Shown here: one piece after another, positions 36,388 to 44,835 of the stretch
Numbering within the stretch: the stretch's first letter is position 1
Layout of the letters: every line of letters starts with the position of its first letter
Translations under genes and position numbers: made by a program
Source: Adlercreutzia hattorii
GTDB taxonomy: Bacteria > Actinomycetota > Coriobacteriia > Coriobacteriales > Eggerthellaceae
Assembly (NCBI RefSeq): GCF_011405655.1
Contig: NZ_AP022829.1
Location: 915,001 to 979,000 of the forward strand
Reading direction: 5' to 3'
DNA length: 64,000 nt
Notes under the pieces: generated by a model
Told to the model about the DNA's origin: nothing
Databases searched by the model: none
The model's input: only the letters and a program-made list of their open reading frames with translations

Positions 36388-36618
36388 TTGGAGGCATCGG
36401 AGGCCCAGAGCGTCGACGTGCCGGTGTGCCGCGGTGTCGGCGCGTCGGTGCGACAAAGCGCCGGGATGCAGGGTTGCAGAATAGTAGCGATGCGATGGTG
36501 TTTCGCGAGAGAGAAGTCGCAACTGGTAAACTTAACCGTGAACATCAGGGATAGCGGGGCCGCATGGCCGCCGCTTCAGGGCGTCGCGTCGACGCCCGAC
36601 GCATTTCGGGAGGCAACC

Positions 36619-37911
36619 ATGCTGCACGCCCACGATGAATCAGTTCGCGCCCACTTGCTGGAGGGCGGCTTCGGCCTGGAGAAAGAGTCGCTGCGCATCG
36701 ACGGCGGCGGCTTTCTCGCCCATACGCCGGCCGACTTCGCCGACGACGTGCACATCGTGCGCGATTTCTCCGAGAACCAGGTGGAAGTGAACACGCCGGT
36801 GTGCGCCACGCCGGCCGAGGCGATCCAATCGCTGGAGCACTACAACGGCCTCGTGCAGCGGGCCATCGCGAATTTGCCCGAGCGCGAGCTTTTGTGGCCC
36901 TTCTCGAACCCGCCCTATATCCTGAACGAGAAGGACATCCCCATCGCCCAGTACTTCGGCGACGATGCCGGCAAGACGGAATACCGCGAGTACCTCTCCG
37001 ACCGCTACGGCCGCTACAAGATGGCCTTTTCCGGCATTCACCTGAACTACTCTTTCGGCGAGGCGCTGCTGCGTGCCGACTACGAGCTCGCCCGCGCGGA
37101 GAGTCCCGACGCCCCCGCCATTTTCGAGGCCTACCGCGACCAGTTCTACGTGCGCCTGGCCGAGAACTGCGTGGCCTACAGTTGGATTCTCACCGCGGTC
37201 ATGGCCGCGAGCCCGGTGTGCGACTCCTCCTTCGTGGAGAAGGGCCGCATCGGCGGCGACCTCTTCCAGGGCCTGGCCACCGTACGCTGTTCGGAGCTCG
37301 GTTACTGGAACTTCTTCGCGCCCATTCTCGATTATACGAGTGCGGCGGCCTACGCCGATTCCATCCAGTCCTACATCGACAGCGGCATGATTCGCTACCC
37401 CTCCGAGCTCTATTACCCCATCCGGCTGAAAAACTTCGGCCCCTACAGCCTGGAGGGCTTAAAAGAGGGCATCAGCCACATCGAGCTGCGCATGGTGGAC
37501 TTGAACCCGCTCGTCCGTTCCGGTATCGACGAGCGCGACGTGCTGTTCAGCCAGCTGTTTTTGGTATGGGCCGCCGCCCAAGCGCCGGCGAACCTCACGG
37601 TGAAGGACCAGGTGCAGGCCGTGCAAAACTTCAAGAACGCCGCCCACTACGATTTGAAGACCGTGAAGATCGTCATGCCCGACGGCACCGCCTGCTCGGT
37701 GGTGAAGGCTGCCAAGCGTATCATCGATGCCATGGAAGCGTTCTTCGATGACTTCGGCACCTCGGTCCACGAATGCCTGGCCTTCCAGCGCCTGAAGTTC
37801 GAGGACCCTCACACTCGCTACGCCTGGAAGATCCGCGAGGAATACGGCCAGGGCTTCGTAGCCCGCGGCCTGCAACTGGCCCGCAAGCTCCAGAAAGGGT
37901 ACGTGGAGTAG
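36619..37911 (+). CDS. gshA: Glutamate-cysteine ligase (GshA-like)
   Basis: This would make gamma-glutamylcysteine from glutamate and cysteine with ATP. The 430-residue product resembles the class-I-type GshA domain: GGFGLEKESLRID, DFSENQVEVNTP, LWPFSNPP, FSGIHLNYSF and ELRMVDLNPL. It matches the ligase half of bifunctional GshAB; no ATP-grasp glutathione synthetase domain follows. GGGAGG lies before ATG 36619; the longer frame from 36280 crosses repeat element 3 and is not similar. Whether the cell makes glutathione or stops at gamma-Glu-Cys cannot be told here. Confidence 0.9.
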   Translation: MLHAHDESVRAHLLEGGFGLEKESLRIDGGGFLAHTPADFADDVHIVRDFSENQVEVNTPVCATPAEAIQSLEHYNGLVQRAIANLPERELLWPFSNPPYILNEKDIPIAQYFGDDAGKTEYREYLSDRYGRYKMAFSGIHLNYSFGEALLRADYELARAESPDAPAIFEAYRDQFYVRLAENCVAYSWILTAVMAASPVCDSSFVEKGRIGGDLFQGLATVRCSELGYWNFFAPILDYTSAAAYADSIQSYIDSGMIRYPSELYYPIRLKNFGPYSLEGLKEGISHIELRMVDLNPLVRSGIDERDVLFSQLFLVWAAAQAPANLTVKDQVQAVQNFKNAAHYDLKTVKIVMPDGTACSVVKAAKRIIDAMEAFFDDFGTSVHECLAFQRLKFEDPHTRYAWKIREEYGQGFVARGLQLARKLQKGYVE

Positions 37912-37920
37912 GGAAGGACC

Positions 37921-38487
37921 CTATCCGAAGATGGCTTTCAAGGCCATGTCACGGGTGGCTTTCATGTTGATCTTGCAGCCGCGGAGCATGATGTCGCCGA
38001 TGCCGTAGATGAAGATGCCCAAGTACTGCTTGGCCGCATCGATGTCCATATCGGCCGAAACGGCGCCGATTGCCTTTCCATGCTCCAGCGCAGTTGCGAA
38101 TATGGCGCAGGTCTCGTCGTACTGGGCCTGGGCGCTCTCGGTGATGGCCGGAATCTGCCCCGACGTCGATTCGACGGTGGCAACGAACCGGGCCCGCTGC
38201 TCATCGTTGCGCAAATTGCTGGTGATGCTCGCAATGAGGGCCGCGAAGGCCTGCTTGAACTCGGCGGGCTCCGTGCAGCCGAGCGCTTCGTCGGCGCTCA
38301 CGTTGATGAGCGGGTCGATCATCTCGTAGGTGGCCAGCAGCAGGTCCTCTTTGGAAGAGAAGTGGTAGTAGAGGGCCGGCCTCGTGATGCCGAGCTCTTC
38401 GGCGATGGCTCCCATGGAGGTGTGGTTGTAGCCCTTCTCCGCGAAGGCCCGATAGGCGATTTCCAGTATTTGATCTCGTGTTGACAT
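37921..38487 (-). CDS. TetR-family transcriptional regulator
   Basis: The 188-residue protein has an N-terminal TetR HTH (RDQILEIAYRAFAEKGY...TSMGAIAEELGITRPALYYHFSSKEDL) and a helical ligand-binding domain. The ATG at 38487 follows GAGGAAAA. It is divergent from the deiminase gene across a 220-bp region with several palindromes, so it most likely controls that cluster and itself. The ligand is presumably a guanidino or ureido compound, or a polyamine (inference). Confidence 0.92.
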   Translation of the reverse strand: MSTRDQILEIAYRAFAEKGYNHTSMGAIAEELGITRPALYYHFSSKEDLLLATYEMIDPLINVSADEALGCTEPAEFKQAFAALIASITSNLRNDEQRARFVATVESTSGQIPAITESAQAQYDETCAIFATALEHGKAIGAVSADMDIDAAKQYLGIFIYGIGDIMLRGCKINMKATRDMALKAIFG

Positions 38488-38563
38488 GGGGTTTTCCTCG
38501 CTCTGCAACCAATAGACTCGTTCGCTCGAAGCTTTTTCGATCGCCTATATATTACCTGAAATC

Positions 38564-38658
38564 TTTACAGCGTGTAAAAAAACTTACACATTGTAAAAAA
38601 ATCCATTGACTTTGAGCGGGAAGGTCACTATAGTTTGCCTTACTTACAGTAAGTAAGG
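38564..38658 (+). promoter_or_regulatory. Divergent promoter/operator region of the deiminase cluster
   Basis: For the deiminase gene, TTGACT (38606-38611) and TATAGT (38629-38634) are 17 bases apart. Just downstream is a perfect 21-base palindrome with half-sites CCTTACTTAC and GTAAGTAAGG around one A (38638-38658), well placed to block transcription. Two further palindromes, TTTACA-GCG-TGTAAA (38564-38578) and TTACA-CAT-TGTAA (38584-38596), lie towards tetR. Half-sites are related (TTACA/TTAC), suggesting one TetR protein binds all three. Confidence 0.75.
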
Positions 38659-38707
38659 AACAAGAGGGGCGTTCGCAAGAGCGCGGGCAGGACGAAAGGA
38701 GCAGCAA

Positions 38708-40009
38708 GTGGAAATTGAGAAGTTCCGATTCCCGGGAGAGTTCGAACCGCAGACCGACGTGTTCATCAACTGGCTTCCCGACTATTGCGCCGGTGAGGAC
38801 GGCGACAAGGGTCGTGAGGTGCTCGTCGAGGTGGTGAAGAATCTGCTGGGTCACGTGAACGTTCATGTGAACTGCGGCTGCGAGACCTCCCTTGAGGCCT
38901 GCAAGCAGATGCTGGCCGATGCGGGTGTGGATGTGTCCGACCCCGATACCGAGGGTCAGCGCAACACCGCCGCTGACAACGGGGATGAGAAGTTCAGCCC
39001 CTTCATCCGCTTCACCCAGTTCGACGACTGGAGCGTGTCCATCCGCGACAACGGCCCCGATGTCATGATCGACGACGAGGGCAACACGCTGGCTGTGAAC
39101 ATGCGCTGGAGCAACTACTCCAACAACGACAAGATGGAGCCTGCCCAGCAGCTGGCCCGTCGCTGCGGGGCACAGATGGCCATCGACCTGGATGTGTTCG
39201 ATGCCATTAACTCCGATATGGTGTCCGAAGGCGGCAATCGCGAGTTCAATGGCGCCGGAGTGATGATCGCCGTGGAGGACACCGAGGTCAACAAGCGCAA
39301 TCCCGAGTACACCAAACAAGAGATCGAGCAGGAGTACAAGCGCGTGTGGAACCTGGACAAGATCATCTGGATCCCGCAGCCGCTGCTCGAAGACGACGAC
39401 ATACGCAAGGGGCCCATCGACGAGCTGGCCGACGGCACGCTCGTATGGCCCGGCTCCTTCGCCGCCCATGCCGACGAGTACTGCCGCTTCGTGGGCGAGG
39501 ACACGGTGCTTCTGGCCGAGGTGACCGACGAGGAGGCCGCCGAGAGTCCTGTCAGCGCCGAGAACAAGCGCCGCATCGACGCCGCCTACGAGATCCTCAA
39601 GAACGAGACGCTGCCCGACGGCCGCCCGCTGAAGATCGTGCGCATGCCCTTCCCGGAGCATCTCATCTTTCGCGGCAGCCAGGACAACCCCACGGTCATG
39701 GGCTGGAAGCAGTTCTTCGACGAGAACGGCGGCGTGGCCTTCGACGGTACCCCGTGGCCCGAGGGCGACTACTGCTTCGTCAACTCCTGCAGCTACTGCA
39801 ACTTCCTCGTGTGCAACGACGTGGTGTTGGGCCAGCGCTACTGGCACGAGGGCATGGATCCGAAGATCAAGGAGAAGGACGAGCGCGCCAAGGCGGTGCT
39901 CGAGAGCGTGTTCCCCGGCCGCGAGGTCGTCATGCTGGACACGTACTGCCTGAACCTGTTCGGCGGCGGCGTGCACTGCTGGACCAAGAACGTGGCAATG
40001 CCCCAATAA
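38708..40009 (+). CDS. Agmatine deiminase / peptidylarginine-deiminase-like guanidino hydrolase
   Basis: This family hydrolyses a guanidino group to a ureido group plus ammonia, for example agmatine to N-carbamoylputrescine. The 433-residue protein keeps SIRDNGPDVM (Asp114), AAHADEYCRFV (His254) and the C-terminal GGGVHCWT nucleophile Cys424. It is ~65 residues longer than typical AguA. It also lacks the usual GFNAWGG and EGGSIHVDGEG wording (here MRWSNY and SEGGNREFNGAG), so the substrate may not be agmatine. GTG 38708 follows GAAAGGAG. A carbamoyltransferase gene follows at once, matching an agmatine-deiminase-type pathway. Confidence 0.82.
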   Translation: MEIEKFRFPGEFEPQTDVFINWLPDYCAGEDGDKGREVLVEVVKNLLGHVNVHVNCGCETSLEACKQMLADAGVDVSDPDTEGQRNTAADNGDEKFSPFIRFTQFDDWSVSIRDNGPDVMIDDEGNTLAVNMRWSNYSNNDKMEPAQQLARRCGAQMAIDLDVFDAINSDMVSEGGNREFNGAGVMIAVEDTEVNKRNPEYTKQEIEQEYKRVWNLDKIIWIPQPLLEDDDIRKGPIDELADGTLVWPGSFAAHADEYCRFVGEDTVLLAEVTDEEAAESPVSAENKRRIDAAYEILKNETLPDGRPLKIVRMPFPEHLIFRGSQDNPTVMGWKQFFDENGGVAFDGTPWPEGDYCFVNSCSYCNFLVCNDVVLGQRYWHEGMDPKIKEKDERAKAVLESVFPGREVVMLDTYCLNLFGGGVHCWTKNVAMPQ

Positions 40010-40054
40010 CGTGAGTTCGCAAGGGAAGAAAACAAGAGGAAAGGAATCTCACCC

Positions 40055-41137
40055 ATGCTTAACAACTTCGTAGGAAAGGACATCATCAACATCGGCGACA
40101 TGACCCCCGACCAGTTCCAGTACCTGCTGGATCTGTCCAAGATGCTGAAGGCCGAGAAGATGACCGGCGTCGATCACGCCCGCTTCCACAACAAGAACGT
40201 GGTGGCCCACTTCGAGTGGGAGTCGACCCGCACCCGCTGCGCCTTCGAGACCTCCTGCCATGACCTGGGCCTGGGCTTCACCTACCTGTCCAACTCGCAC
40301 TTCGGCAACAAGGAGACGGTGAAGGACTCCATCCGCGTGTTCAGCGAGATGTACGACGCCATCGTGCTGCGCGCCCAGCGCGAGGAGGCCTACGTGCGCG
40401 AGGTGGCCGACATCGCCACCATTCCAGTCATCAACGCCTGCTGCGAGGGCGACCATCCCACCCAGATGCTGGCCGACGCCCTCACCATGCAGGAGCTTTT
40501 GGGCAACCTGAAGGGCCGCAAGCTGGCCTTCGTGGGCAACTGCGCCACCACCGCCATGTGGTACGGCCGCCTGTGCGCGCTTCTGGGCATGGACTTCTAC
40601 GCCGTGGGCCCCGACGACGAGCGCTACCAGCTGTGCGACTCCTTCAAGGAGAACATCGAGGACCTGTTCGACAAGTGGGCACCGAACAACGAGATCGTGC
40701 TCACCTCCGACAAGGAGAAGCTGAAGGGCATGGACGTGGTGACCACCGAGTGCTGGATCTACCAGAACCCCGACGTGCACGACGAGGACCTGGCCGCCAC
40801 CGGCGACTGGACGAGCTTGGAGTACTCTTACGACGCGTGGCTGCGCCACTCCGACATCATGGAGCCCTACCGCGTGACGAGCGACCTGATGGAAGATTAC
40901 GTGAAGAACCCCGACTGCCTGGTCATGCATATGCTGCCGGCCTACCACAACGCCGACATGAAGCTGATGCAGAAGTTCCTGGCCGAGGCCAAGAACGAGC
41001 GCGACCGCCGCATCCTCACCGAGGGCATCTGCATCTCCGACGAGTGCTTCGAGAAGCACGCCAGCGAGATCTTCCGCGAGGCCGGCAACCGCCAGCCCAC
41101 CATCAAGGCCTGCCTGGCCGCTGTTCTGGGCATCTAG
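40055..41137 (+). CDS. Ornithine/putrescine carbamoyltransferase-like enzyme with altered substrate loops
   Basis: This family transfers a carbamoyl group between carbamoyl phosphate and an amine; in catabolic operons it runs backwards on citrulline or carbamoylputrescine. The 360-residue product keeps the carbamoyl-phosphate site STRTR (57-61) and HPTQ (134-137). The ornithine-type HCLP motif reads HMLP (292-295), losing the active-site Cys. The SMG substrate loop (TDxWxSMG in ornithine enzymes) is replaced by TTECWIYQNPD (230-240). So the amine is probably neither ornithine nor a standard putrescine. No carbamate kinase gene is present nearby. GGAAAGGAA precedes ATG 40055. Confidence 0.85.
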   Translation: MLNNFVGKDIINIGDMTPDQFQYLLDLSKMLKAEKMTGVDHARFHNKNVVAHFEWESTRTRCAFETSCHDLGLGFTYLSNSHFGNKETVKDSIRVFSEMYDAIVLRAQREEAYVREVADIATIPVINACCEGDHPTQMLADALTMQELLGNLKGRKLAFVGNCATTAMWYGRLCALLGMDFYAVGPDDERYQLCDSFKENIEDLFDKWAPNNEIVLTSDKEKLKGMDVVTTECWIYQNPDVHDEDLAATGDWTSLEYSYDAWLRHSDIMEPYRVTSDLMEDYVKNPDCLVMHMLPAYHNADMKLMQKFLAEAKNERDRRILTEGICISDECFEKHASEIFREAGNRQPTIKACLAAVLGI

Positions 41138-41199
41138 TCGTCGACTCACCACGGGCGGGCGGCCCGCGCGGCTGCCCGCCGTTCCCGTAAGGAGAAAGC

Positions 41200-42498
41200 A
41201 TGTCTACTGAAGTAGCAAAGAAAAGCGGAAGCGGCTACGCCTGGCTCGTCATGGTCGGCTTTGGCATGGTCATGTGCGCCACTATCGGCGCCATCACCGT
41301 CATGGGCGGCCTGTTCTACTATCCGGTGTGCGAGGAGCTGGGCTTCGATCTGTCATCGTTCACCCTGTACGTGACGCTATCCATGGTGTTCATGGCGCTG
41401 GGCATGCCCATCTGCGGCAAGATCATGGCATCGGGCAAAATCAAGCTGTCGGTGCTCATGACCGTGGCCGTGCTGCTGGAGCTCGTTCCCTTCGCCTGCA
41501 TGTCCATGTTCACCGAGATGTGGATGTGGTTTGTGGCGGCTGTGCCCATCGGCTTCGGCCTGTCGGCCACCAGCACCGTGACCGCTGCGCCCACCCTGGG
41601 CAACTGGTTCCACAAGAAGACCGGTTTCGCCATTGGCATGATCTTCACCATCCAGAGTATCTTTGTGGCGGTGGCGAGCCCCATTTTCAGCAACATGATC
41701 GAGATGCTCGGTTGGCGCATGAGCTACGTGGTGCTGGCCATCATCGCCGCGGTCATGGCCCTGCCCTTCACCATCTTCGTCATTCGCTATCGTCCCGAGG
41801 ACAAGGGCATGCTGCCCTACGGCTACGACCCGAACGCCGTTGAGGAAGAGGGTGGCGCGGTCGCCGAGACCGGCGTGCCCTACAAACTGGCCCTGCGCTC
41901 GGTGCCCTTCGTGATGGCCGTCCTCGTGGTCATGATGTCCATGACCATCTCGAACATGAACGTGGTGTTCCCCACCTATGCCGAGGTAGTTGGCCTTGGC
42001 GCCATTGTGGGCGGCTTCATGGTGACGGCGGCAAGCCTTGCCGATATCGCTCTCAATCCCATCCTGGGCACCACGGCCGACAAGTTCGGCCCCACCAAGT
42101 CGTTCATCGGCTGGACCGTGGTCACCATGGTGTCGTTCGTCATCCTGTACTTCAGCGTGAACAGCCCCATTCTGGCCATCGTGGGCGCGGGCATCAACGA
42201 TGTCATGTACGCGCTCTGCGGCGTGGGCCTAGCCACCTTCACCATGGCCTGGTTCGGCAAGAAGGACTATGAGCGCATCTTCTCCACGGTCATGATGTTC
42301 GGCTATCTTGTTGCCAGCCTGGGCGTGCCCATCATGATGAAGATCTACGAGGTTACCGGTGCCTTCGAGAACGTGTTCGTCTTCGGGTTCATCGTCTGCG
42401 CCATCATCATCGTATGCCTGCTGGTGGGCGAGAAGCAGTCCGCGAAGCTGCCCCAGGAAACCGTCGAGGTTGCCGCCGAGGCCGCCCCGCAGGAGTAA
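41200..42498 (+). CDS. OFA-type MFS transporter (deiminase cluster)
   Basis: The 432-residue protein has 12 helices and the OFA (oxalate/formate antiporter-like) MFS style: YAWLVMVGFGMVMCATIG, then GNWFHKKTGFAIGM between helices 4 and 5. It lies 62 bases after the carbamoyltransferase gene, probably in one operon, and may exchange the guanidino substrate for its product (inference). A strong terminator follows. The MFS gene at 43564 is a close paralogue, sharing RYRPEDKGxLPYGY and FPTYAEVVGLGAxVGG. Confidence 0.9.
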   Translation: MSTEVAKKSGSGYAWLVMVGFGMVMCATIGAITVMGGLFYYPVCEELGFDLSSFTLYVTLSMVFMALGMPICGKIMASGKIKLSVLMTVAVLLELVPFACMSMFTEMWMWFVAAVPIGFGLSATSTVTAAPTLGNWFHKKTGFAIGMIFTIQSIFVAVASPIFSNMIEMLGWRMSYVVLAIIAAVMALPFTIFVIRYRPEDKGMLPYGYDPNAVEEEGGAVAETGVPYKLALRSVPFVMAVLVVMMSMTISNMNVVFPTYAEVVGLGAIVGGFMVTAASLADIALNPILGTTADKFGPTKSFIGWTVVTMVSFVILYFSVNSPILAIVGAGINDVMYALCGVGLATFTMAWFGKKDYERIFSTVMMFGYLVASLGVPIMMKIYEVTGAFENVFVFGFIVCAIIIVCLLVGEKQSAKLPQETVEVAAEAAPQE

Positions 42499-42503
42499 GC
42501 CCC

Positions 42504-42539
42504 AAAGCCACCTGCCCTTGTGCCGGGCAGGTGGCTTTT
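42504..42539 (+). terminator. Terminator of the deiminase operon
   Basis: A 14-base perfect stem AAAGCCACCTGCCC / GGGCAGGTGGCTTT (42504-42517, 42525-42538) with a seven-base loop ends in TTTTC. Confidence 0.92.
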
Positions 42540-42570: not shown

Positions 42571-43512
42571 ATGAGGGGAATGACCTATCGCTACCATCCC
42601 GAGCTCCAGGAGCTCGTAGACGACCCCGCGGGCTTCCCGCCTGCGGAGAAGTTCGTGGGAACCCTTGAGGAAATGCGCGCGTTCGCCGACCCCCTCTACG
42701 CCGAGATGCGGGACTTGCCGCTGGCGGAGGGGGTCGTGGCGCGTGATGTGGAGATTGAGACGGCCGACGGCTATCCCATGCGGGCCCGCTGGTACCGGAA
42801 GGAGGGGTCGGACGCGCGCTCGGCGGTGATGTACGTCCACGGGGGCGGCATGATCCTCATGGGCATCGACGAGATGGACGCGGATATCTCGCGCTATGTG
42901 GCCCTAAGCGGCGTGCCGTTTCTGTCCATCGGCTACCGCCTGGCGCCCGAGCATCCGCGCCCCCAGGCCGAGGATGCCCTCGACGGGTACCTGTGGCTCA
43001 TCGGCCATGCGGACGAGCTGGGCATCGATGCGCACCGCGTTGCCATCATGGGCGACAGCGGCGGCGCGGGCATTGCGGCGGGGGCCGCTATCCTCGCGCG
43101 CGACAGAGGCGTGCCGCTGGCCAAGCAGATTCTCATCTACCCCATGCTGGACGACCGAACCGTGGCCTGCGACGATGAGCTTGACGGCCTTGCACACGTG
43201 TGGTTCGCGGAGAACAACAAGATGGCCTGGGAGGCCGTGCTGGGCGAGCGCCGGGGAACCGATGAAGTGCTGCCCTGCGAGGCCCCGGCGCGCAACGAGA
43301 GCTTCGAGGGCCTGGCGCCGGCTTTCCTGGAGGTGGGCGAGCTCGACCTGTTCCGCGACGAAACCATCGAGTACGCGAAGCGCCTGATGGCGGCTCACGT
43401 TCCCGTCGAGCTCCATGTGCTCACGGGCCTCACGCACACCTTCGACACGTTCCCGCTGCCCATTGCCGACAAGGCCTTCGAGTACCGGTCCTATGTAATC
43501 TCGCAGCTGTGA
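42571..43512 (+). CDS. Alpha/beta hydrolase (HSL-type esterase)
   Basis: The 313-residue cytosolic protein has the hormone-sensitive-lipase oxyanion motif YVHGGGMIL and the nucleophile elbow GDSGGAG. It also has an acid region near ELDLFRDE and the C-terminal catalytic histidine in GLTHTFDT. It hydrolyses an ester or amide; the substrate is unknown. Two starts compete: ATG 42571 directly after AAAGGAGAGG and ATG 42580, nine bases further. It begins 32 bases after the terminator of the deiminase operon and is followed by an MFS paralogue. Confidence 0.87.
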   Translation: MRGMTYRYHPELQELVDDPAGFPPAEKFVGTLEEMRAFADPLYAEMRDLPLAEGVVARDVEIETADGYPMRARWYRKEGSDARSAVMYVHGGGMILMGIDEMDADISRYVALSGVPFLSIGYRLAPEHPRPQAEDALDGYLWLIGHADELGIDAHRVAIMGDSGGAGIAAGAAILARDRGVPLAKQILIYPMLDDRTVACDDELDGLAHVWFAENNKMAWEAVLGERRGTDEVLPCEAPARNESFEGLAPAFLEVGELDLFRDETIEYAKRLMAAHVPVELHVLTGLTHTFDTFPLPIADKAFEYRSYVISQL

Positions 43513-43563
43513 GAGATCGACTTTGGAAACGAATCTTCGAGCTTAGAAACGGAGTTGGATGCA

Positions 43564-44835
43564 ATGACATCTGCGAAAACCGTTGAACAGGGGAATAAGC
43601 CCCACTATGCATGGCTTGTGATGATTGCCTATGGTCTGATGATGAGCGGCACCATCGGCTCGTTCTCGGTGGTGGGCGCGCAGTGGTTCTATCCTGTCAG
43701 CACGGACATCGGCTGCGAACTCTCTACCCTGACGCTCTATACCACCATAGAAATGGTGTGCATGGGCCTGGCCATGCCCCTGGTGGGCAATTTGCTCACG
43801 CGCGTGAAACTGCCGGTCATCCTGATCGCGGCCGTGGCCATGGAGGTGCTGGCCACTGTGGCCATGGCCTTCTACGATGAGCCCTGGATGTGGTATGTCT
43901 CCGGTGTGTTCGTCGGTCTCGGGCTGGCGGCCACCAGCACCGTTACCGTCACGCCCACCATGGGTAATTGGTTCGCGAAGAAGACCGGCTTCGCCATCGG
44001 CGTGGTGTGGGCCATCCAGGCGCTGTACTGCGCCGTGGCAAGCCCTTTGTTCGCCACCATTATCGAGGCCATTGGCTGGCGCTCCTCATATTTCGTGCTC
44101 GCCGCGGCATCCGCATGCCTGGCGCTGCCTGCCATCGTCTTCGTTATCCGCTATCGCCCTGAAGATAAGGGGCTTCTGCCTTACGGGTACGAGGAAGCGG
44201 CTGGGCGCGCTAAAACCCTGGCTCCCAGCACCGCGCCCGGCGTGCCGGCAGCCGCAGCGTTCCGCAGCGTGCCGTTCCTCCTCTGCGTGGGCGTGGTGAT
44301 GCTGTGCCAAGGGACGGCCTGTATGAACGCCATTTTTCCAACCTACGCCGAAGTGGTGGGACTTGGCGCGGTGGTGGGCGGACTGATGGTGTCCTCGGCG
44401 AGCCTCTGCGACATTGTCTTTAACCCCCTGGCGGGTGCCACCAGCGATAAATTCGGCTCGACGCGCGCCATGGTGCTGTGGACGGGCATCACCATGGTGT
44501 CATTCGTGGTGCTGTACTTCAGCAGCGAGTCGGTGGTAGGCTCGTGCGTAGGCGCTGGTTTGAACGACGCCATGTACGCCATCACCGGCGTGGGCTATTC
44601 CACCTTCGCGCTCTCCATCTTCGGCATGAGGGACTTCGAGAAGATCTTCTCGCGCATCACCAGCTGCGGCTACCTGGTTGCTAGCCTGGGCATTCCGCTG
44701 ATGATGTCCATCTACGAGGCCACCGGCGTGTTCCAGAATGTGTTCGTGTTCGGCTTCATCGTCGATATCGTCATCATCGCCCTGGTCATCCTCGCGAAGA
44801 AAAGCAGCCGCACCCTGCGCTGGTTGAGCGAGTAG
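43564..44835 (+). CDS. OFA-type MFS transporter, paralogue of the gene at 41200
   Basis: The 423-residue protein has 12 helices, GNWFAKKTGFAIGV between helices 4 and 5, and long stretches in common with the other MFS protein, so it is a duplicate. ATG 43564 lies nine bases after GGAG; TTG 43555 is an alternative. It probably forms a unit with the esterase gene 51 bases upstream, an esterase-plus-transporter pair for some small ester or amide (inference). Confidence 0.9.
   Translation: MTSAKTVEQGNKPHYAWLVMIAYGLMMSGTIGSFSVVGAQWFYPVSTDIGCELSTLTLYTTIEMVCMGLAMPLVGNLLTRVKLPVILIAAVAMEVLATVAMAFYDEPWMWYVSGVFVGLGLAATSTVTVTPTMGNWFAKKTGFAIGVVWAIQALYCAVASPLFATIIEAIGWRSSYFVLAAASACLALPAIVFVIRYRPEDKGLLPYGYEEAAGRAKTLAPSTAPGVPAAAAFRSVPFLLCVGVVMLCQGTACMNAIFPTYAEVVGLGAVVGGLMVSSASLCDIVFNPLAGATSDKFGSTRAMVLWTGITMVSFVVLYFSSESVVGSCVGAGLNDAMYAITGVGYSTFALSIFGMRDFEKIFSRITSCGYLVASLGIPLMMSIYEATGVFQNVFVFGFIVDIVIIALVILAKKSSRTLRWLSE

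Follow-up and report, generated by a model that had tools for sequence, protein, structure and literature searches.

The Adlercreutzia hattorii (Eggerthellaceae) locus at positions 38708 to 42498 of the window, by which we mean the whole stretch of 64,000 nucleotides analysed here (G000:C1:915001-979000, from a 2.91-Mb genome), probably belongs to a deiminase/transcarbamylase/carbamate-kinase pathway that yields ATP from a guanidino compound distinct from both agmatine and arginine. We place the probability of this sequence-based reading at about three in four, because of the retained catalysis, the gene order and the kinase link. Gene order, conservation, retained residues, separate clades, palindrome, terminator and the presence of kinases were read directly from the sequences. 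A pathway for an unusual guanidino compound had been proposed in a first-pass annotation of this DNA. The core of that idea is strengthened by the present analysis, although the part that relied on an absent carbamate kinase did not stand, as described below.

Organization of the locus and its control region

The first gene of the locus (38708 to 40009, + strand) starts with GTG behind a GGAG ribosome site and encodes a pentein deiminase of the PAD_porph family (PF04371, 164 bits), in a subfamily other than AguA. It is followed by the gene of an unknotted-type transcarbamylase of an uncharacterised subfamily (40055 to 41137, + strand, 360 residues; PF02729 (OTCace_N), 129.5 bits; PF00185 (OTCace), 69.6 bits) and, as had been recognized at first pass, by that of an OFA-type MFS transporter, OFA1 (41200 to 42498, + strand; PF07690 (MFS_1), 110.4 bits). 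Each of the three genes is preceded by a plausible ribosome site. An intrinsic terminator with a 14-bp stem and a U run (42506 to 42538, + strand; −29.6 kcal/mol, z −5.7) closes the transcription unit. Divergent from the operon lies the gene of a TetR-family regulator (37921 to 38490, − strand; PF00440 (TetR_N), 65.7 bits), which attained no NCBIfam TetR equivalog cut-off. Immediately upstream of the TetR gene, positions 36472 to 37911 encode a glutamate-cysteine ligase (PF04262).

The 217-bp region between the deiminase and TetR genes contains a sigma-70-like promoter, TTGACT-17-TATAGT (38606 to 38634, + strand), with 10 of 12 consensus matches and, over the predicted transcription start, a perfect 21-bp palindrome, CCTTACTTACAGTAAGTAAGG (38638 to 38658), whose 10-nt arms are 100% complementary. 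By an arithmetic estimate, about 0.001 perfect palindromes with 10-bp arms are expected by chance in such a region. The palindrome core occurred once in the window and in none of 100 shuffles, and it was found in one place only in the 2.9-Mb genome when up to one mismatch was allowed. This palindrome is likely the operator to which TetR would bind. An imperfect inverted repeat with 14-nt arms (86%) at 38564 to 38597, overlapping a promoter-like site towards the TetR gene, is a possible second operator. A search for the 21-bp palindrome in other TetR-type loci revealed no shared operator; the regulator itself alternates among the relatives' loci between TetR and a LuxR-type protein. Because of the promoter, the palindrome at the start site, the divergent TetR gene and the strong terminator, it is well supported that deiminase, transcarbamylase and OFA1 form one unit with a local TetR alongside, which lends support to the TetR-type control of the operon suggested earlier.

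Bile-salt, lactate and oxalate/formate MFS models all matched OFA1 below their cut-offs, the bile-salt and lactate models being the nearest in NCBIfam. The OFA family is best known for carboxylates. Past the terminator, an alpha/beta-hydrolase of the hormone-sensitive-lipase type (42571 to 43512, + strand; PF07859, 164 bits), whose membership in the system is uncertain, separates OFA1 from a second OFA-type MFS transporter, OFA2 (43555 to 44835, + strand), a 53% paralog of OFA1. In another locus, L048, the deiminase gene is immediately preceded by that of a 62% relative of OFA2.

The deiminase

Profile scores and phylogeny place the deiminase outside the known groups, AguA included. It scored 109 bits against the AguA cut-off of 381.8 (NCBIfam TIGR03380), is about 23% identical to Enterococcus faecalis AguA and belongs to a clade of 25 with 100/100 support, far from the AguA clade. 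In plasmid records only ordinary AguA-type matches were found, at no more than 26% identity. The enzyme has 433 residues compared to 365 in E. faecalis AguA, with about 20 extra residues ahead of the catalytic His. This extra length had been pointed out at first pass together with the intact catalytic residues, and both observations hold: Cys424, His254, Asp256 and the pair Arg113-Asp114 are kept and align with those of AguA.

In agmatine iminohydrolase from Medicago, the substrate is held at its terminal amine by Asp89 and Asp220 (PMC6447857). In the window enzyme their places are taken by Ser109 and Ser250, as mapped by profile-supported alignments at about 23% identity and not by structural superposition; both positions are non-acidic in the aligned rows of the extended family. 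The channel residue Trp91 of the Medicago enzyme corresponds to Ser111 in the window deiminase, other members of the clade having Tyr or Trp there, and the NGH before the catalytic pair reads AAH in the window clade.

These changes bear on the alternative of a diverged agmatine pathway, in which the substrate would be unchanged, the deiminase forming N-carbamoylputrescine and the transcarbamylase putrescine. The AlphaFold model of the deiminase (pLDDT 81) has the agmatine-deiminase pentein fold with agmatine deiminases as best and nearest solved matches, as this alternative would predict, and a study of E. lenta reports growth on agmatine and several operons of the agmatine type, one operon being agmatine-induced and a second not (PMC10234575). 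Nevertheless, at 23% identity the deiminase falls outside the AguA clade, both amine-anchoring acids have become Ser, and the host genome already has two canonical AguA/PTC/APC modules.

The transcarbamylase

By the same kinds of comparison the partner enzyme also lies outside the known groups, being neither an OTC nor a PTC. It remained below every NCBIfam cut-off (OTC, 204.6 against 280.85; PTC, 158.7 against 500; YgeW, 56.2 against 500, with 56 to 63 bits over the YgeW models). For comparison, ArgI, PyrB and YgeW of E. coli were used as references together with PTC and AguA of E. faecalis. In a maximum-likelihood tree, 23 transcarbamylases of the window type formed one clade (100/100) that excluded OTC and PTC, and its separation held whether the long branches of ATCase and YgeW were included or left out. 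The AlphaFold model (pLDDT 75) has the OTC/PTC fold. The earlier view that the operon differs from the pathways of arginine deiminase and agmatine deiminase is thus supported by the phylogeny proposed as its check, which leaves both enzymes outside the AguA and PtcA groups.

Transcarbamylases share the motifs SxRT, HPxQ and HxLP and a carbamoyl-phosphate Arg (PMC4581275). This set is intact in the window protein, with STRT at 57 to 60 (as STRTR), Arg106, HPTQ at 134 to 137 and HMLP at 292 to 295, in agreement with the first-pass statement that the carbamoyl-phosphate site is kept. The second-substrate positions, taken from structural papers (PMC4581275, PMC3282769), have in contrast all changed, an argument that, as for the deiminase, rests on alignments. 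OTCs are characterized by the lysine of FxKxSxRT and by a DxxxSMG motif (PMC4581275). The lysine (K53) is replaced by Trp55, reading FEWESTRT, and DxxxSMG by TExWxY, reading TTECWIY; Trp55, Glu232, Trp234 and Tyr236 are invariant in 17 aligned clade members. The position of OTC Asn167 and PTC Gln164 is not conserved in the clade, Glu232 is an acidic residue at the position of OTC Asp231, and the acid-rich 240s loop carries an insertion.

A pathway for an amino acid resembling arginine, for example canavanine, homoarginine or norarginine, with an OTC variant as its transcarbamylase, would be consistent with the acidity retained at Glu232 and with the higher identity to OTC (34%) than to PTC (28%). 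We consider it unlikely, with the lysine that pairs with the alpha-carboxylate in OTC being an invariant Trp (PMC3282769, PMC4581275), the SMG loop gone, Asn167 not kept and the transporter of the OFA type, not ArcD-like.

PTCs combine STRT and HCLP with a 230-loop of the form (Y/W)(G/W)(V/L/I)x and a C-terminal extension of about 20 residues (PMC3282769). The window enzyme shares STRT; it has no HCLP, no PTC 230-loop and no Gln164, and its C-terminus is OTC-like, without the extension. Taken with the deiminase data, this makes the diverged agmatine pathway very improbable. The replacement of HCLP by HMLP and the absence of DxxxSMG, both noted at first pass, are real. The weight put on the cysteine was nevertheless too high: HxLP is a family motif whose second residue varies (PMC4581275), and the clade has HMLP or HELP. 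Better evidence is provided by the change from FxK to FxW, by the 240s loop and by the amine-binding site of the deiminase.

Distribution and gene order

When one genome was scanned for each species, 62 deiminase relatives were obtained, 22 of them close (50 to 70% identity) and 40 distant. The close loci belong to Eggerthellaceae, Slackia, Senegalimassilia, Parvibacter, Collinsella aerofaciens strains and one Lactobacillus (YT155). In all 22 the transcarbamylase is adjacent to the deiminase, as read for five of them from the duplicate family loci L052, L054, L060, L062 and L063, and matching family loci agree. An OFA transporter lies downstream in 21; in the remaining one, L082, the contig ends before it. 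Family-wide, any match was present in 35 of 138 genomes and the close type in about 19, with the module located near 528.6 kb (L065) in genome G052, for example.

L067, L068 and L069 form the sister group in the deiminase tree as well as in the transcarbamylase tree, suggesting that the two genes are transmitted as a pair. These sister modules (L067 6197-12215, L068 1507-5740, L069 689-5745) show about 40% identity. They have NhaC-like or YfcC-like transporters in place of OFA, implying other cargo. In Eggerthella sinensis (L056/L095, 1-19500) a window-type module sits in an island with four transcarbamylases, several deiminases of the PAD_porph family, a carbamate kinase and APC transporters.

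The distant relatives, at 30 to 39% identity, include Methanogenium, Paenibacillus, Anaerocolumna, Chlorobiaceae and others. Only one of the 40 is paired with a transcarbamylase, that of Candidatus Izimaplasma HR2 (L111 7882-10266), which is PTC-like with an HVLP motif; this pairing is apparently separate from the window type. Five Bacillota loci (L104, L106, L109, L119, L142) have a common divergent MerR-type regulator and no transcarbamylase. Beyond these five, a search of the distant loci for neighbours that might name the substrate found no common one.

Carbamate kinases

The first-pass statement that carbamate kinase is absent holds for the window and fails for the host genome, which has four full-length carbamate kinases (339 to 365 bits). 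In five of the 22 close loci (L091, L099, L101, L102 and L103, Lactobacillus sp. YT155 included), moreover, a carbamate kinase lies directly downstream as fourth gene, so that the argument from a missing kinase no longer applies. The synteny of these kinase-linked relatives supports the step from carbamoyl phosphate to ATP. In a carbamate-kinase tree none of the four host kinases was singled out as the partner, and the module-adjacent kinases of most kinase-linked relatives are not close orthologs of these four.

In the other 17 close loci the kinase is unlinked, and carbamoyl phosphate might there serve another use. A role in nitrogen scavenging or detoxification, in which carbamoyl phosphate or ammonia would enter biosynthesis instead of yielding ATP, would agree with this and with a kinase outside the operon in A. 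hattorii. Its occurrence as fourth gene in five loci, one of them in a Lactobacillus, and the many energy-type deiminase modules of the host genome that include kinases leave such a role little probability. That genome has eight transcarbamylase-domain genes and four PAD_porph loci, and its canonical modules, ArcA with OTC and AguA with PTC and an APC antiporter, are separate.

Proposed pathway and substrate

In the ATP-yielding pathway that we favour, OFA1 and perhaps OFA2 would import the guanidino compound, possibly in exchange for a product. The pentein deiminase would convert the guanidino to a ureido group with release of ammonia, and the transcarbamylase would phosphorolyse the ureido compound to an amine and carbamoyl phosphate. 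Carbamate kinase, encoded elsewhere in the host and in the operon in some relatives, would then produce ATP, CO2 and ammonia. By occupying the 21-bp palindrome, TetR would keep the promoter blocked until the regulator binds substrate or product. The direction of the reactions, the ATP role, the transporter cargo and the binding of TetR to its operator are what we infer here.

The leading guess for the substrate is a guanidino compound without the terminal amine of agmatine, of the guanidinoacetate, guanidinopropionate, guanidinobutyrate or creatine type, because both amine anchors of the deiminase and the OTC lysine are lost and an OFA transporter is used. The acidic residue corresponding to OTC Asp231 and the acid-rich 240s loop point the other way, favouring an amine-bearing compound, so that the clues from deiminase and transcarbamylase conflict. 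Tentatively, gut Eggerthellaceae and Collinsella may make ATP from a host- or diet-derived guanidino acid by deimination followed by phosphorolysis with a transcarbamylase of new specificity. The module could then, equally tentatively, represent a third guanidine fermentation beside those of arginine and agmatine, with guanidinoacetate, creatine, guanidinopropionate and guanidinobutyrate as candidates. In the literature we found no published assay for any enzyme of either clade.

Relation to known systems

The closest parallel in logic and superfamilies is the agmatine deiminase pathway of the Enterococcus faecalis type (aguA/ptcA/aguD/arcC), which likewise combines a PAD_porph deiminase, an unknotted transcarbamylase, a transporter and carbamate kinase. 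The window enzymes differ by falling outside the AguA and PTC clades, by the loss of the amine-binding acids and, for the transcarbamylase, of the YGLY-type 230 loop, HCLP and C-terminal extension; OFA replaces the APC transporter. The arginine deiminase pathway (arcA/arcB/arcC/arcD) has the same deiminase/transcarbamylase/kinase logic and, in OTC, the nearest relative of the window transcarbamylase. Here the deiminase is of the PAD_porph and not the ArcA type, FxK has become FxW, the SMG loop is missing and the transporter is OFA. YgeW-type clusters (E. coli ygeW-yqeA) likewise look catabolic, with a transcarbamylase of uncertain substrate beside a gene of the amino-acid-kinase family. YgeW has, however, a knotted fold, and no guanidine deiminase is present there.

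Few transcarbamylase specificities are known so far, and a 2015 review of the family lists several independent clades without known function (PMC4581275). Because the window clade is accompanied by a deiminase, a transporter and, in part of its members, a kinase, its chemistry is almost fixed, the substrate excepted. Homology-based annotation is likely to label the enzymes agmatine deiminase or ornithine carbamoyltransferase and thereby to predict the wrong metabolism. Members of Eggerthella, Gordonibacter and Collinsella, all common gut genera, carry the module, which could therefore determine what becomes of a guanidino metabolite in the gut.

A further module of the host genome (L072, G000:C1:1884653-1890034) combines a PTC-like transcarbamylase, an AguA-like deiminase, an NCS1-type transporter and a carbamate kinase. 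Its transcarbamylase is 38% identical to E. faecalis PTC and has an HYLP motif, and the NCS1-type transporter suggests yet another substrate. Because of this module, the regulator swaps and the NhaC-like or YfcC-like transporters of the sister modules, we hypothesize from a handful of loci that Eggerthellaceae have multiplied the deiminase/transcarbamylase module for several compounds.
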